This document shows positions 1 through 40,547 of a stretch of DNA of 45,525 nucleotides, piece after piece (the stretch's first letter is position 1; each line of letters begins with the position of its first letter). Where the stretch lies: contig JAKALA010000030.1 in assembly GCA_021813325.1 (NCBI GenBank), positions 1 through 45,525 on the forward strand, read 5' to 3'. Source of the DNA: a bacterium. GTDB lineage: Bacteria > Verrucomicrobiota > Verrucomicrobiia > Limisphaerales > UBA11358. The notes beneath the pieces are model-generated. The model did no database searches. It worked only from the letters and a program-made list of their open reading frames with translations, and was not told the origin of the DNA. Position numbers and translations under genes: made by a program.

Positions 1-619
1 GCGTCGCCGTGCCCACCACCAATTCCTGAGCCGGCACGTTTAGCGACTTGTCCGATGTGTTTTCAATACGAACGGTTGCGTTGACAAGGTAGTTTGAGCT
101 GAATTGGAAGTTCTTTACCAGGCGCAGGCCGTCGGCCAACGTCTTTTCCATATGCACCCCATTGGTGGTGCGCTGCAATACGAAATTCCCATCACCCACC
201 AGGCTTTCGCCGCCCAACACCGCCAGCGACGGCACCGCCGCATGCGCGTTCAACATCGCAACGCTCGCGCAATTGGTAACCTGATCTTTCCAGCGAGCGG
301 AAATCGTTTCGGGATAATCCAGCAACTCCACCTGTTTCAGCCCCCCGCCCCGCGTCGTGAAGGTGTAGCGCGCCCGGCCATTCGTCAGCACCAGCGTCTG
401 TTCCGGCAAATTGGTGCTGAAAGTCACCGGCGTGGTGGCAATGGACGAAGCCACGGCGGGTGCCGGCGGATTGGCGTTCAGATTCGTGGCGGTGGTGGCT
501 TCCGGGCGATGCGCCGCGGCATAGGCCGCCTGCTGGTGGGCAAACTCGTTTTGCTTGTAGAACCACCAGCCAAACAGCATCACACAAATCGAGACAACAA
601 TGATTCCTGTCCTGTCCAT
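1..619 (-). CDS. yidC: YidC membrane protein insertase, N-terminal part (cut by window edge)
   Basis: The reading frame starts with MDRTGIIVVSICVML, a single hydrophobic segment that fits the first transmembrane helix of Gram-negative YidC. An Ala/Pro/Thr-rich linker follows, and then sequence typical of the large periplasmic beta-sandwich domain (TNGRARYTFTTRGGGLKQVEL, around residues 80-100). The frame stays open to the left edge, so the conserved membrane-insertase core lies outside the window. YidC inserts proteins into the inner membrane, alone or with SecYEG. It is the last gene of the rpmH-rnpA-yidD-yidC series here, and that order is itself strong support. A short AT-rich heptad repeat separates it from yidD. 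Confidence 0.9.
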   Translation of the reverse strand, partial: MDRTGIIVVSICVMLFGWWFYKQNEFAHQQAAYAAAHRPEATTATNLNANPPAPAVASSIATTPVTFSTNLPEQTLVLTNGRARYTFTTRGGGLKQVELLDYPETISARWKDQVTNCASVAMLNAHAAVPSLAVLGGESLVGDGNFVLQRTTNGVHMEKTLADGLRLVKNFQFSSNYLVNATVRIENTSDKSLNVPAQELVVGTAT

Positions 620-621
620 GA

Positions 622-663
622 GAAATTAAAACCTGAAACTTGAGATTGGAAATTTTAAATGCT
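622..663. repeat. Degenerate heptanucleotide tandem repeat
   Basis: Six consecutive 7-nt units (GAAATTA, AAACCTG, AAACTTG, AGATTGG, AAATTTT, AAATGCT) cover the yidD-yidC junction and supply the last codons of yidD. The 7-nt period and A-rich units match the repeats at 39586-39655, which also end in AAATGCT. Confidence 0.55.
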
Positions 664-901
664 TTTCCGGCACCGGATCATGCCCGCAGCCACCCCACGG
701 ATGGCAGCGGCAAATGCGTTTGGCGGCAAGCCATGAGCCGGCCACCGCGCCGTGTTGGCGCACCGCCTCCGCCGCGTAAACCGAACAGGTGGGAGTAAAC
801 CGGCATCCGCCTGTGCCGCCAAAAAGGTAAACCTGCGCGGGAGAAACGACGAGGCGATAGACCCGCACGCCAAAAATTAGAATGTGCTGTGGCAGATTCA
901 C
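626..901 (-). CDS. yidD: Membrane protein insertion efficiency factor YidD
   Basis: This 91-residue protein has the family hallmarks: an N-terminal amphipathic/hydrophobic stretch, the cysteine motif CRFTPTCSVYA, and the later RCHPWGGCGHDPVP-like segment (here CRCHPWGGCGHDPVP). YidD helps YidC-dependent membrane insertion at the inner face of the cytoplasmic membrane. The start is GTG, one base after the rnpA stop, so the two are probably translationally coupled. The C-terminal tail (KHLKFPISSFRF) is encoded by a degenerate heptanucleotide repeat and is probably not a conserved part of the protein. Confidence 0.93.
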   Translation of the reverse strand: MNLPQHILIFGVRVYRLVVSPAQVYLFGGTGGCRFTPTCSVYAAEAVRQHGAVAGSWLAAKRICRCHPWGGCGHDPVPEKHLKFPISSFRF

Positions 902-902
902 C

Positions 903-1271
903 TTAATTTCTTAGCAGATTGGCCCGCCGCAAGACGGCCAAAAAATCCTTTTCAACGGCGGCATACGGTTTTCCAGCGATGGAATTCCGGGCCACGAGAA
1001 CCAGTTCGACTGGCCGAATCAGTTCGTGCTGATGCTGCCGGAAACTTTCCCGAAGCAGCCGCCGGGCCCGGCTGCGTTCCGGGGCATTGCCAATTTTTTT
1101 ACTGGTCACCACGCCCATTTTGGGCGGCGACCCCTCCGGCAATTTGTTCCAATTGGCAATGAGGCAGCCGAGGGCGAGGCGTTCACCCCGCTGCCGGATG
1201 CGCACGAAATCACGGTTTTGTGCGAGCCGCAGTGATCGGCCCAAACGCAGGCGTTTCGGCGCGGTGTTCAC
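903..1271 (-). CDS. rnpA: Ribonuclease P protein component
   Basis: This 122-residue basic protein carries the RnpA signature: RLAQNRDFVRIRQRGER near the N-terminus, then the RNR-type motif KIGNAPERSRARRLLRESFR. RnpA binds the RNase P RNA and supports 5' maturation of tRNA precursors. The start is GTG, four bases downstream of the rpmH stop, and the stop is one base before yidD, so rpmH-rnpA-yidD form a tight transcription unit. Length and position are normal for the family. Confidence 0.95.
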   Translation of the reverse strand: MNTAPKRLRLGRSLRLAQNRDFVRIRQRGERLALGCLIANWNKLPEGSPPKMGVVTSKKIGNAPERSRARRLLRESFRQHQHELIRPVELVLVARNSIAGKPYAAVEKDFLAVLRRANLLRN

Positions 1272-2948: not shown

Positions 2949-3103
2949 TTTTCAAAACCATAACAAATCCCTGCGGAGCAAACAATGAATTGTCGCCGAG
3001 TCCGGCCAAGATCGGCCCGGTCTGCCCCCAAAAAAGCCGCCATGAGACCTGTGTTTGCAAGCTTCCACTTTCAGAGAGAACCGTTTATGCTGGCGCGAAA
3101 GTT

Positions 3104-20317: not shown

Positions 20318-20343
20318 TCGTAAATCGTAAATCGTAAATCGTA
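20318..20343. repeat. 7-nt tandem repeat (TCGTAAA x 3.7)
   Basis: Three perfect TCGTAAA units and a partial TCGTA lie between the thioredoxin-fold gene and the exonuclease-like gene, ending 12 bp before the latter's likely GTG start. Slippage here would change promoter or leader spacing. Confidence 0.8.
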
Positions 20344-20355
20344 GAGTTGAACGCA

Positions 20356-20889
20356 GTGAAGAACATCGTTTATTTCGATCTGGAAACGCAAAAGTCCGCC
20401 GATGAAGTGGGCGGCTGGGGCAATATTTCCAAGATGGGCATGAGCGTGGGCGTGACTTACAGCACGGCGCGCGGCGACTACATGATTTACGGCGAAAAGC
20501 AGGTGAATGATCTCATCACCGAACTGCAGCGCGCCGATCTAGTGGTGGGCTTCAATAATTTGCGCTTCGATTACGAAGTGCTGCACGGCTACACGGCCCT
20601 GGACCTGACACAAATTCCCACCCTCGACATGCTGATCGTGCTCAACGAAACGCTGGGGCATCGGCTCTCGCTGGATTCCATTGCCACGGCAACGTTTGAT
20701 GTGGAGAAAACGGCCGAAGGCTTGCAGGCCATTCGCTGGTTCAAGGAAGGCAAATTGGCGGAAATCGCGGAATATTGCTGCTACGACGTGAAAATCACCA
20801 AGCTGATTCACGAATACGGCGCCCAGCAAAAGCAGCTTCATTACATGAACCGCTTTGGGAAAAAGCTTACTGTGCCGGTGAGCTGGTGA
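20356..20889 (+). CDS. RNase H-like (DEDD) exonuclease domain protein
   Basis: The 177-residue protein has the exonuclease motifs of the DnaQ/YprB-type fold: ExoI YFDLETQ (D and E), ExoII VVGFNNLRFDYEVL (D) and a late YCCYDVKITK aspartate. Such domains digest DNA or RNA from the 3' end with two metal ions; in some relatives they are fused to helicases, here the domain stands alone. I prefer GTG 20356 as start because GTAGAG lies 9 bases before it; TTG at 20347 is in frame. The gene sits at the left border of accessory island two. Confidence 0.78.
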   Translation: MKNIVYFDLETQKSADEVGGWGNISKMGMSVGVTYSTARGDYMIYGEKQVNDLITELQRADLVVGFNNLRFDYEVLHGYTALDLTQIPTLDMLIVLNETLGHRLSLDSIATATFDVEKTAEGLQAIRWFKEGKLAEIAEYCCYDVKITKLIHEYGAQQKQLHYMNRFGKKLTVPVSW

Positions 20890-20894
20890 GTTTG

Positions 20895-20910
20895 CGGTGC
20901 GGATGCACCG
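20895..20910 (+). terminator. Weak hairpin after the exonuclease-like gene
   Basis: CGGTGC-GGAT-GCACCG forms a 6-bp stem directly after the stop codon, followed by TCTATCC rather than a T-run. It may be a weak terminator. Confidence 0.35.
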
Positions 20911-21116
20911 TCTATCCATCGAAGCCAGAAAATTCTGCCGGAATTATTTCAGGAAAAATTATTTGCCATCATGTTTTTCACTACCTAACTTCTGCCCATC
21001 CCAACTGGCAACGGATTGAAATGGATCCGGGTTATGGCAAGGCAAACGTGGATGGAATTTGGGTCTCTTGACAAATCGAGAAGGGTTGCAGGCTTTTCGC
21101 AACAGCCATTCGACAA

Positions 21117-21410
21117 GGCGGTATTTTCCCCTGACACAGCGGCCAGTCCCGCGCGCCATCTGTCTGGCACCGATGAAGGTCTGTTCTTCCCTTTCGCCAA
21201 GCTGTTATTCAGCTTTAACCGGCTGTTAAAGCCTGCTGCCAAGCCGTTTTCCCGCAGATGCAGACTGCCTTTCCCCGTTCACAACCCGTTATTTCTCGCT
21301 GACAGACTGTTTTGCGGGAATGACTGTCTGTTTTTGGCCAGTTCCAAGCCATTTTACGCCGCCCCCGCGCCGTTCTGCGGCAACACCACTCTGATAAACC
21401 GCTCATAAAC
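21117..21410 (+). repeat. Degenerate 21-bp-period array upstream of the 239-residue protein gene
   Basis: From 21159 to 21410 twelve consecutive units of exactly 21 bp can be laid out with no gaps. Unit position 2 is C in 12 of 12, position 3 is a pyrimidine in 12, position 4 is G in 11, positions 5 and 6 are T in 10 each, position 8 is T in 9, and position 19 is C in 10. This gives an 11-nt core CARNCYGTTNT spanning unit joints, separated by 10 variable nt. Weaker units extend left to 21117 or 21096. The array ends 39 bp before the ATG at 21450. The period equals two turns of B-DNA and also seven codons. A GCTTTAAC/GTTAAAGC hairpin spans 21212-21232, and a TTGACA box without a good -10 lies at 21068-21073. 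The remaining part of this 560-bp gap, 20911-21095, shows nothing I can name. Confidence 0.8.
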
Positions 21411-21449
21411 CACACTTTACGCAGTAAACCACCCAAAACACACAAAAAC

Positions 21450-22169
21450 ATGAATGACCGACTGAAAAACCGACTGAACATGATCAACACCTGCCTTGGC
21501 CTCGCCAACAGCAGCGATTACAAACCCGTCTGGACTGGCAAAGACCCCGCCGACTTTGGCACCGACCTCGCGACACTCGGCGTAAACTACAATGCCTGCA
21601 TTGCCAAAGCCGCATTGGCCGACGGCACCAAGGACGGTTCCACCGACGCCAAAGCCAGCGCCGAAAGCACCGTGGAAGACACCACCTATGTGCTCGCCCG
21701 CGCCCTGGCCGTGCACTTCAAAAAAAACGGCAACCTCACCAGCCTTGGAAAAGCCGACATCGCCAAACGCGACCTCGTCAAACTCTCCGGCCAGCCCCTC
21801 ATTGTCAAAGCCACCGAGATTCGCGACCTCGGCACCGCTGCCAGCGCCGATGCGGATGCCGCCAACCGCGGCATCACCGCCGCCCGCGTCACTGCCGTGA
21901 CTGATGCCATTGCCGCCTACGCCCCGCTGGTGAACGCCCCGCGCGGGCAGATTGTGAACCGCAGCGCCCTGCTCAAGGAGATTGAAACCGACACCGCCAC
22001 CATGCTCGACCAGTTGGCCGACCTGGACGACTTGATCCTCCTGCTCGAAAGCAGCGAAGCCAGCCAGCGCTTTCAAGCCGCGTGGAAACGCGCCCGCATC
22101 ATCGTGGACGCCGGTCACGGCCCCGCCCCGGAGCAAACACCCGCGCCCGCGCCCGCCCCAGCGCAATAA
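21450..22169 (+). CDS. Uncharacterised protein following the 21-bp array
   Basis: I do not recognise a characterised family in this 239-residue protein. It has no signal peptide and no transmembrane segment and looks mostly helical. The N-terminus is MNDRLKNRLNMINTCLGLAN, followed by YKPVWTGKDPADFGTDLATL. A conserved-looking block NAPRGQIVNRSALLKEIETD sits near residue 165, and the tail is Pro/Ala-rich (PAPEQTPAPAPAPAQ), likely disordered. The ATG follows an A-rich leader (ACACAAAAAC) without a Shine-Dalgarno site. A strong hairpin closes the gene, so it is a single-gene unit whose only companion is the 21-bp array. The helical soluble form would suit a nucleic acid-binding or structural role, which is inference. 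Confidence 0.75.
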   Translation: MNDRLKNRLNMINTCLGLANSSDYKPVWTGKDPADFGTDLATLGVNYNACIAKAALADGTKDGSTDAKASAESTVEDTTYVLARALAVHFKKNGNLTSLGKADIAKRDLVKLSGQPLIVKATEIRDLGTAASADADAANRGITAARVTAVTDAIAAYAPLVNAPRGQIVNRSALLKEIETDTATMLDQLADLDDLILLLESSEASQRFQAAWKRARIIVDAGHGPAPEQTPAPAPAPAQ

Positions 22170-22182
22170 AGCGAGGCCACAC

Positions 22183-22213
22183 AAAGCGGCGGTTGACCCG
22201 CAACCGCCGCTTT
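22183..22213 (+). terminator. Strong hairpin terminator after the array-associated gene
   Basis: AAAGCGGCGGTTG pairs perfectly with CAACCGCCGCTTT around an ACCCG loop (13-bp stem), 13 bp after the stop codon. The stem's own TTT is followed by CCTAAGG, so the T-run is short. Confidence 0.7.
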
Positions 22214-22257
22214 CCTAAGGAAAACGCCGAAGATTAACAAACCAGCTTGAGTTTCTG

Positions 22258-22404
22258 AAAATAGCCCAGCGCTTTAGCGCTGGGTAAATCGTCCAACAAA
22301 CCAGCTAAGTCCCGTCAGGGACGGCAGAAAACATCTTTCGTCCCTCCGGGACTTGCAGCGATTCATCGGATACATCACCCAGCACTAAAGTGCTGGGCTA
22401 TTTT
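22258..22404. repeat. Left REP cluster of the RAYT element
   Basis: Four hairpins lie in a mirror arrangement: CCCAGCGC-TTTA-GCGCTGGG (22265-22284), GTCCC-GTCA-GGGAC (22309-22322), GTCCC-TCC-GGGAC (22340-22352) and CCCAGCAC-TAAA-GTGCTGGG (22378-22397). The ends are perfect inverted copies, AAAATAGCCCAG and CTGGGCTATTTT. This is the form of a REP/BIME unit. Confidence 0.85.
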
Positions 22405-22431
22405 CGGCGGACAAATTATTCTGCAACGACC

Positions 22432-22884
22432 ATGCACTCCTTCAATTCCTGCCTGATGCATTGCGTGTTCTCCACCAAGGAGCGTCGTCCATGCCTCACG
22501 CCGGAAATCCGCCAACGGCTCTGGCCGTATCTCGGCGGCATTGCGCGGGAAAATGACATGAAGGCGCTCGCCATCGGCGGCATGGCGGATCATGTGCATG
22601 TGCTTTTGAGCTTGCCCGCGACGCTTTCGGTCTCCAAGGCGATGCAATTGATTAAAGGAAATTCATCAAAATGGTTGCGGGAAACGTTTCCCGAATTGCG
22701 GCCGCAAGGTTTCGCATGGCAGGAAGGTTTTGGCGCGTTCAGCATCGGCGTGTCGGGTGTTGATGACACGATCCATTACATTCAAACGCAGGAAGATCAT
22801 CATCGGAAGAAAAGTTTCCGCGAGGAGTTGGAAATTTTTTTGAAGAAGCATGGTTATGATTACAAGCCGGAGATGTTGGATTAA
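22432..22884 (+). CDS. REP-associated tyrosine transposase (Y1/IS200-like)
   Basis: The 150-residue protein has the HUH signature HVHVLLSLP (H54, H56) and the single catalytic tyrosine in IHYIQTQEDHH (Y116), in the normal order and length for Y1 transposases of the RAYT group. Such enzymes nick single-stranded DNA at hairpins and form a 5' phosphotyrosine. I chose the ATG at 22432 (MHSFNSCLMHCVFSTKERRP), since the frame further upstream runs into the REP hairpin. It is flanked on both sides by matched REP clusters. The reading frame looks intact. Confidence 0.9.
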   Translation: MHSFNSCLMHCVFSTKERRPCLTPEIRQRLWPYLGGIARENDMKALAIGGMADHVHVLLSLPATLSVSKAMQLIKGNSSKWLRETFPELRPQGFAWQEGFGAFSIGVSGVDDTIHYIQTQEDHHRKKSFREELEIFLKKHGYDYKPEMLD

Positions 22885-22888
22885 CGAC

Positions 22889-23028
22889 AATAGCCCAGAA
22901 CTTTAGTTCTGGGTTTGCGGTGCAAATGCAATTGAGTCCCGCAAGGGACGAAAGAATGTCTCTATCGTCCCTCACGGGACTATGGTGGCCGTGCGCCAGC
23001 AACCCAGCCATGAATGGCTGGGCTATTT
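22889..23028. repeat. Right REP cluster of the RAYT element
   Basis: The same layout as the left cluster: CCCAGAAC-TTTA-GTTCTGGG (22894-22913), GTCCC-GCAA-GGGAC (22936-22949), GTCCC-TCAC-GGGAC (22967-22980) and CCCAGCCA-TGAA-TGGCTGGG (23003-23022). It starts AATAGCCCAG and ends CTGGGCTATTT, with different bases in the stem tips but preserved pairing. Confidence 0.85.
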
Positions 23029-39185: not shown

Positions 39186-40547
39186 ATGAACACCGCCAAA
39201 CAAGCCAAATTCATCCGTAATTCGCTTCCGCCCGGCGGTTTATTCGCCGGCATGGAATGGAAAGTATCACCAACACCGTTTCCACTGGGCGAAAAATTGG
39301 CGAAAGACCTCGAATCGCTTGGACGCGTGCTGTTGCAGTTTTATCGCGCCACCAATTTGCTCTATCGCAAAAGCGTGGAAGGCAAGCAGCCGGAATGGGT
39401 CGCCCGCTGGCTGGACCTTGGCAAGCCTGCGGAGCTGATTGAGCTTCAACGTTCGGACGCCTTCAAGAGCGATGTGCCACGCGTCATTCGTCCGGACGTT
39501 TTGATCACGGAAGATGGCTTCAGCATTACGGAACTGGATTCCGTCCCCGGTGGCATCGGCCTGGCGGCGTGGCTGAATCAAACGTATTGCCAATTGCCAA
39601 TTGCCGATGGCCAAACTGATAAATTGGAAATTGAAAATTGGAAATTGAAAATGCTGGGCGGTGCCGATGGTATGATGCGCGGGTTCGCGTCCATTTTCGG
39701 TGACGCCAGACAAGCTCACATTGTCGTTTCGGAAGAGGCGGCGACTTACAAGCCGGAGATGGCATGGCTGGCGGAACAGTTGAATTTGCGCGGCGACGCC
39801 ACTTTCAACCTTCAATCTTCGACCTTCAACCAATTCGCCGAAGGCGACGCGGTTTACCGGTTCTTCGAGCTGTTCGACCTGCCGAATGTCGCCAATGCCA
39901 AACAGATTTTTGAGCTGGCGGCAGAGAAGAAAATCCACCTGACGCCGCCGCCCAAACCGATTTTTGAGGAAAAAATGCTGTTCGCATTGTTGTGGAACCG
40001 CAACCTGCAAAACTTCTGGCGGCAGGAACTGGGCGAAGGATTTGTCGCACGGCTCAAAAAAATCATTCCTTACACCTGGCTCGTCGATCCGAGGCCGTTG
40101 CCGCCGCACGGAGCGATCCCGGAATTGAATTTGACCGACTGGCAGCAGTTGAAATCGCTGTCACAAAAGAAGCGCGACCTGATTTTGAAGGTTTCCGGCT
40201 TCTCCGAAAATGCCTGGGGCGCGCGTGGCGTGTTCCTCGGCAGCGATTTGTCGCAGGCCGATTGGAGCGCCGCCGTGGACGCGGCGTTGCGTGATTTTGA
40301 AAAATCGCCGAACGTCCTGCAGCGCTTCCACAAGCCGGCGCAGGTGGACGCGAGCTGGTTTGACTTCGCAAAAAATGAACTGGTGCCGACGAAAGGCCGG
40401 GTCCGGCTGTGCCCGTATTATTTCGTCAGCGGCGAAGGCGATGCCGCGCGGCCCGCGCTGGGCGGCGTGCTGGCGACGATCGTGCCCGCCGATAAAAAAA
40501 TTGTGCATGGAATGAGCGACGCTATTCTAGCGCCTTGTTCCGTATGA
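39186..40547 (+). CDS. ATP-grasp-like protein, family uncertain
   Basis: The 453-residue protein has features that resemble circularly permuted ATP-grasp enzymes: VLITEDGFSITELDSVPGG, LILKVSGFSENAWGARGVFL (possible ATP-binding glycine loop) and VRLCPYYFVSGEGDAARPA. The substrate is unknown. Residues about 134-157 and 206-215 are encoded by heptanucleotide tandem repeats (39586-39655 and 39803-39830), kept in frame. The start ATG at 39186 gives MNTAKQAKFIRNSLPPGG. Its stop overlaps the ATG of the MarC gene, so the two are coupled. Confidence 0.65.
   Translation: MNTAKQAKFIRNSLPPGGLFAGMEWKVSPTPFPLGEKLAKDLESLGRVLLQFYRATNLLYRKSVEGKQPEWVARWLDLGKPAELIELQRSDAFKSDVPRVIRPDVLITEDGFSITELDSVPGGIGLAAWLNQTYCQLPIADGQTDKLEIENWKLKMLGGADGMMRGFASIFGDARQAHIVVSEEAATYKPEMAWLAEQLNLRGDATFNLQSSTFNQFAEGDAVYRFFELFDLPNVANAKQIFELAAEKKIHLTPPPKPIFEEKMLFALLWNRNLQNFWRQELGEGFVARLKKIIPYTWLVDPRPLPPHGAIPELNLTDWQQLKSLSQKKRDLILKVSGFSENAWGARGVFLGSDLSQADWSAAVDAALRDFEKSPNVLQRFHKPAQVDASWFDFAKNELVPTKGRVRLCPYYFVSGEGDAARPALGGVLATIVPADKKIVHGMSDAILAPCSV
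39586..39655. repeat. Ten-unit heptanucleotide tandem repeat inside a gene
   Basis: Units in order: ATTGCCA, ATTGCCA, ATTGCCG, ATGGCCA, AACTGAT, AAATTGG, AAATTGA, AAATTGG, AAATTGA, AAATGCT. The repeat encodes the low-complexity segment around QTDKLEIENWKLKML of the ATP-grasp-like protein. Confidence 0.85.
39803..39830. repeat. Four-unit heptanucleotide tandem repeat inside a gene
   Basis: TTTCAAC, CTTCAAT, CTTCGAC, CTTCAAC, encoding FNLQSSTFN in the ATP-grasp-like protein, 148 bp after the first intragenic repeat. The unit differs from that repeat but the 7-nt period is the same. Confidence 0.75.

Follow-up and report, generated by a model that had tools for sequence, protein, structure and literature searches.

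A ladder of 21-bp repeats whose sequence follows the downstream orphan protein in Verrucomicrobia

In ParR-parC, a protein encoded by the module occupies adjacent direct repeats upstream of the gene; parC repeats are family-specific, which lets related modules coexist in one cell, and homologues bind their cognate parC, as the pertinent sections of PMC9426499 describe. Iterons, according to an excerpt of PMC4980987, are direct repeats of 17-22 bp whose cooperative binding is lost when they are separated by half a helical turn. The type III toxin-antitoxin systems (ToxIN, CptIN, and TenpIN), as portrayed in part of PMC5086642, place a tandem array of constant repeat length upstream of a gene, and the repeats are conserved within clades. 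The locus considered here lies in a window of 45,525 nucleotides, i.e., the whole stretch of DNA that was analysed, and consists of the following features.

21112..21410, + strand: 21-bp array; 14 fitted ungapped units at 21112-21405, core approximately CAnnCYGTTnT, the rest variable
21411..21449, + strand: A/C-rich leader from array to ATG, with no evident Shine-Dalgarno motif; a similar leader occurs in many family members
21450..22169, + strand: orphan gene of 239 aa (21450-22166, stop to 22169), product predicted all-helical with a Pro/Ala-rich C-terminal tail
22183..22213, + strand: hairpin, likely the terminator closing the gene, AAAGCGGCGGTT-loop-AACCGCCGCTTT, dG -22.4

A preliminary description of this DNA had reported twelve units at 21159-21410. 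The 21-bp period exists, as the lag-21 self-match over that interval is 0.468 and exceeds every one of 2000 dinucleotide-preserving shuffles (0.259 ± 0.029; maxima 0.355 at lag 21 and 0.394 at any lag of 5-59), and the fitted unit model extends the series to 14 ungapped units ahead of the orphan gene. Self-match is equally high at lags 42 and 63, and across the contig the highest-scoring lag-21 windows are all found within the array, which is missing from the output of Tandem Repeats Finder. Per-position information amounts to 2.0 bits at an invariant C and 1.6 at a G, and drops to 0.04-0.2 at the most variable positions; the units are composed of a core and a spacer. The consensus initially given for this core, CARNCYGTTNT, is too strict, since only 4 of the 12 units match it in full; one mismatch has to be allowed to reach 6 units, two to reach 10, and three to reach all 12. 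The 39-bp gap from 21410 to the ATG, the plus-strand frame 21016-21408 running open through the array, and the hairpin 3' of the gene are as originally described. TTGAC is absent from the leader of the window, and a promoter scan of it came out empty.

When about 1.28 Mb (30%) of the window's genome were sampled, a 21-nt period was encountered at two further places, one non-coding and one in a coiled-coil gene, and at lags 15-30 no other lag had more than one stretch above the cut. The coding false positive lies inside an ORF of 1141 aa with heptad repeats (L186, 2450-2830). On contig C80 of the same genome (L141, ~590-950, minus strand) a solo 21-nt array with no recognisable family gene adjoins a gene for an XRE-type regulator, and its motif resembles that of the window (CAAACCTTTTTTGCC-like). 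Within the window itself, a Y1/IS200-type transposase (22390-22884; PF01797, E 1.1e-30), RAYT-like by context, is flanked by hairpins at 22250-22284 and 22378-22416 that match Rfam Acido-Lenti-1 at 29.6 and 28.6 bits, below the gathering cut-off of 37. Heptanucleotide tandem repeats (TCGTAAA, ATTGCCA, and AAATTGG) occur at 20318-20343 and 39586-39652.

The 239-aa protein belongs to no Pfam family, and 17 members of its family have no NCBIfam, Pfam, PADLOC, or PHROG family in common; a few single-member matches (best E 8e-05 in PHROGs, 0.0011 in PADLOC) were set aside, as the family does not share them. Relatives were absent from phages (window protein as query), plasmids (one member as query), and viral contigs. 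Within the order, a profile search of 320 genomes located the family at 52 places in 28 of them. Protein searches added 22 places in 13 of the 145 genomes from a second family of the same class; in a phylum-wide set of 288 genomes, 3 carry it, one of these being the window's own. The named records come from MAGs of Verrucomicrobia (subdivision 3, Limisphaerales, and others), two of them labelled as other taxa. Models built with 17 and 39 sequences reach a mean pLDDT of 86.0 and 90.3, respectively, and predict an all-helical bundle that fits no known family; in neither was a DNA-binding fold recognised or a significant fold match obtained. The top matches of the fold search, to the McpS ligand domain (E 0.032-0.033, TM 0.36-0.40), are helical-bundle noise, as are the best ones from VIA-align (Z 8.8, 2rld_C), the viral library (E 0.15), and PDB sequences (E 0.038). 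Family proteins are mostly acidic, with a pI below 6 in 26 of 35. Selection preserves the protein, within clades at least, as dN/dS is 0.12-0.32 in nine of ten orthologue pairs (0.62 in the tenth, window versus L061). A hairpin of dG -12 or lower occurs within 60 nt of the stop at 41 of 56 family loci.

Two further loci of the window's genome resemble this one in part. Contig C57 (L031, 2704-2985) carries a family gene reduced to a C-terminal fragment (69% identity to that of the window), without an array. On contig C11 (L030), a second array (2080-2280, steps of 20 and 21 nt) stands before another 239-aa orphan with a Pro-rich tail, whose gene starts at 2327; its protein matches the family profile weakly (hhalign E 0.0023, probability 12.6%), and with this gene as query only itself was found in 194 genomes.

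Comparison of homologous loci demonstrates that the period recurs. Loci were picked by protein similarity, with the sole exception of L037, which came from a pattern search; duplicate places across two collections, fragments without a gene start, and pieces at contig edges do not enter the counts, and 2 of the 52 places from the order-wide profile search are not in the locus set. Sixty loci entered the period test, in which the best of 49 lags (12-60) was sought in 600 nt upstream and z for lags 21/42 was computed against shuffles, and one proved too short. Among the remaining 59, the window included, the best upstream period is 21 or 42 nt in 42 and another lag in 17. A z of at least 5 at these lags is likewise reached by 42 of the 59, the two sets differing by L059 (best lag 43) and L044 (z 4.9). 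In an independent named collection, of whose 12 loci 5 are places also in the first set, upstream DNA suffices for the test at 10 loci, and 9 of these have the period. Six fragments scanned apart (L002, L005, L043, L049, L055, and L069) have no best lag of 21 or 42. L060/L085 was scored as array-less in the test; in L085, a motif-like 21-nt array (GACAnnGnGGAAATCG) at ~720-1030 stands about 2 kb upstream of, and apart from, the family gene at 3001.

Units could be fitted in 39 arrays, after exclusion of L059 and L101 (weak or mixed registers), L098, in which the array merges with a truncated gene, and L050, which is not long enough. These arrays comprise 542 units, 9-20 in each with a mode of 13-14 (13-16 in 27 of the 39), and 493 of 503 unit steps measure 21 nt, with five of 20 and five of 22, in a fit that allowed just 20-22. 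Ten extra good sites lie outside the fitted chains, 7 of them within 1 nt of register. The array ends 2-320 nt before the estimated gene start, and the gene strand has more C than G in 34 of the 39. Between array and ATG, TTGAC occurs at 15 of the 39 loci as compared with 4.3 expected from shuffles (reverse motif, 3), although 6 of these 15 loci are one clade and no clear -10 box was seen at them. This enrichment suggests that some family members have their promoter on the gene side of the array, an arrangement that speaks for the array acting as DNA. Fourier power is raised at 21, 10.5, and 7 in all base classes, as expected of any 21-nt repeat, so that this check for phased A-tract curvature does not decide the matter. 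No recurrent neighbour gene was detected among ORFs of at least 90 aa at the 39 loci (flanks of 0.2-3 kb), where the clusters obtained all represent the family gene itself in overlapping frames.

In one orthologue group, the array is conserved above both its flanks and silent sites. Across five orthologues, identity is 0.71-0.79 in the four 40-nt bins from -280 to -120, which correspond to the array, whereas it drops to 0.45-0.46 in the DNA before these bins and to 0.52-0.54 in the leader; pairwise comparison of silent sites in this same group gives an identity of 0.57-0.65 (pS 0.35-0.43). Units are orthologous position by position between species and length differences involve whole units, two full-unit (21 nt) differences being found between orthologues. 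The unit positions that are conserved between species are also those conserved between units (rho 0.71, p 0.0003). Under a neutral star model, column heterogeneity is above the mean of the simulations in all 12 arrays and above all 1000 simulations in 6 of them, the window array being among those above the mean yet not above all 1000. Some arrays are nearly uniform, with a lag-21 match above 0.9 (L038, L039, L040, L053, and L056).

The sequence of the unit follows the protein and not the host. Similarity between motifs was expressed as z against column-shuffled motifs. For proteins at least 60% identical from different genomes, mean motif z is 5.42, with 45 of 57 pairs above 3 and the best match on the same strand in all 57, although these close pairs are non-independent, stem from few clades, and could share motifs by common descent without recognition. 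Mean z declines to 1.72 at 40-60% identity (15 of 64 pairs above 3), 0.60 at 25-40%, and 0.57 below 25%, again between different genomes. The 16 pairs from the same genome have a median z of -0.26; two exceed 3, at 84% and 55% protein identity, and a third close pair (57% identity) has a z of 0. Below 40% identity, 13 same-genome pairs average -0.44 as compared with 0.58 for 604 pairs from different genomes. In a Mantel-type test, the observed rank correlation of 0.31 was reached in none of 2000 permutations. Orthologues in other genomes keep their unit sequence, whereas diverged paralogues within one genome differ, and the unrelated motifs of the latter imply that no single cell-wide factor reads these sequences. 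The motif of the window resembles those of its 46-57% identical relatives weakly (z 1.5-2.3 in those listed), and its best match (z 4.4) is an unrelated-looking member at 24% identity.

Unlike the array motif, a 3' hairpin with a GAAA loop seems to follow the host. Near-identical hairpins of this type (GCCTYC-rGAAAy-GRAGGC) occur at L061, L078, L082, L094, L096, L107, L117, L118, L120, and L121; in two genomes, paralogues share one hairpin while their orthologues in the other genome carry another. None was found in 1.33 Mb of the window's genome.

Array and gene move as a pair, and the earlier proposal that they form one unit is well supported by the period at the 42 loci and by joint inheritance and transfer. 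In a tree of 54 proteins, arrays are present in both deep halves, array-carrying and array-less labels change 8 times as compared with 12.7 when shuffled, and one array-less group comprises seven rows. L104, from a genome of the window's genus, and L071, from another family, are nearly identical in both gene and array. Between L082 and L078, the sole DNA match in 6.7 and 4.8 kb is the roughly 1 kb of array plus gene. At L098 (2050-2260), the array directly joins a family gene whose first ~50 codons are missing, as if DNA between the two had been deleted.

We propose, at slightly less than even odds (roughly 0.47), a self-recognising unit: the encoded protein, or a partner specific to it, would bind the unit's own ladder cooperatively, with all contacts on one DNA face, and would control the gene of that unit. 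Array, leader with promoter, gene, and terminator would then constitute one self-contained unit of about 1 kb, in which a ladder of 9-20 direct-repeat sites, two helical turns apart, would receive a protein on every site, all on one face and touching their neighbours. Most likely the binder would be encoded by the downstream gene itself, or would be a factor that serves this gene alone, because diverged paralogous units in one cell differ in motif while orthologues keep theirs. Once occupied cooperatively, the ladder might act on the neighbouring promoter (autoregulation) or serve to assemble a nucleoprotein structure. The acidic character of the proteins and the lack of a known DNA-binding fold in them weigh against direct binding. 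Of the possibilities raised in the preliminary description, a phased operator fits best, given the two-turn period, whole-unit length differences, conserved array, and TTGAC enrichment; that a protein binds the array is what we infer. A bolder idea, held with somewhat less expectation, would be a new kind of chromosomal self-recognition module, with lineage-private ladders of about 14 sites read by their own product, mutually blind units coexisting like incompatibility groups, and movement as 1-kb cassettes.

The chief alternative is a ladder that works as RNA, as in the type III antitoxins; it would be transcribed ahead of the gene, and monomers of repeat RNA would bind the encoded protein. 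The layout, the constant monomer length, and the divergent yet clade-conserved repeats are shared with type III loci as far as the consulted part of PMC5086642 describes them, and the motif strand kept in all 57 close pairs and the excess of C on the gene strand are compatible with it. However, predicted folding equals that of shuffles (mean z -0.02 on the gene strand and -0.65 on the other), a terminator-like hairpin stands between array and gene at 1 of 39 loci, TTGAC is enriched downstream of the array, the 21-nt units in 9-20 copies differ from the 34-36 nt and 2.8-5.5 copies given in that same part, and the all-helical predicted fold has no toxin match. Rfam gave no match at gathering score in five family loci, and in the window (20800-22900) only sub-threshold matches, none of them in the array. 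The RNA leader array suggested earlier is weaker than the operator, given its fold z near 0 and the single terminator in the gap, and we consider it unlikely. Less likely again is a ladder that serves as operator or enhancer for a chromosomal regulator other than the gene product. Phasing, conservation, and the place upstream of the TTGAC element require just some DNA-binding factor, and mostly acidic family proteins would suit a binder encoded elsewhere, but one sequence-reading factor cannot serve all the unrelated motifs of diverged same-genome paralogues, and no conserved neighbour gene was seen.

Slippage that makes and remakes a functionless minisatellite near these genes would agree with the nearly uniform arrays, which look recently expanded, and with the 6 of 12 arrays that do not exceed the neutral column simulation. 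It leaves unexplained, however, why one period should prevail in unrelated sequences across two large protein clades, and conservation above flanks and silent sites as well as position-by-position orthology of units oppose it, so that we regard it as improbable. Most doubtful is a heptapeptide-coding repeat, in which the ladder would specify a small repeat protein or leader peptide. Twenty-one is a multiple of 3, the plus frame is open through the window array and in 24 of 41 arrays (the minus frame in 19 of 41), and coiled-coil genes do yield a 21-nt period, as one did in the control scan. Nevertheless, 17 of the 41 arrays have no open plus frame and 14 have stops in all six frames, steps of 20 and 22 nt exist, and conservation between orthologues by position modulo 3 (0.69, 0.69, and 0.65) has no 3-base pattern. 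The arrays are non-coding, and this earlier suggestion is not supported.

Constant spacing, freely diverging sequence, and a link to one protein family point to an unrecognised protein-DNA (or protein-RNA) recognition code, for which close orthologues, same-genome paralogues, and solo arrays constitute a natural experiment on the co-divergence of a protein and its repeated target. The ladder and its gene family are covered by no known family or system, and no description of such a combination was found in open-licence PubMed Central papers. Like type III systems, the unit has a tandem array of fixed repeat length upstream of an orphan gene and a motif conserved within a protein clade. Those systems, in the account drawn on above, combine 34-36 nt x 2.8-5.5 repeats, a terminator between array and gene, and an endoribonuclease toxin, whereas here 21 nt x 9-20 units, a terminator at 1 of 39 loci, and a predicted helical bundle are encountered; Pfam, NCBIfam, PADLOC, and PHROGs gave no family-wide match, to ToxN, CptN, or TenpN or otherwise, and the helical model no significant fold match. 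Iterons share the direct repeats in the 17-22 bp range and the helical phase (493 of 503 steps of 21), although they comprise 2-7 sites next to an origin and are served by a winged-helix Rep, as compared with 9-20 units here, no match to a Rep family, two modelled folds without significant match, and no plasmid match for the one member searched. ParMRC resembles the unit in its family-specific repeats upstream of a gene and, as proposed here, in cognate binding. In contrast, ParR is a ribbon-helix-helix protein acting with ParM, whereas the present protein is a predicted helical bundle, no recurrent neighbour gene, parM included, was detected at the 39 loci (flanks of 0.2-3 kb), and the 9-20 units follow one fixed 21-bp period on contigs of chromosomal size or unknown replicon. 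The lack of a parM neighbour and the terminator at 1 of 39 loci place the ladder unit in neither ParMRC nor type III. By analogy, it may work like ParR-parC or the iterons, yet would belong to neither.
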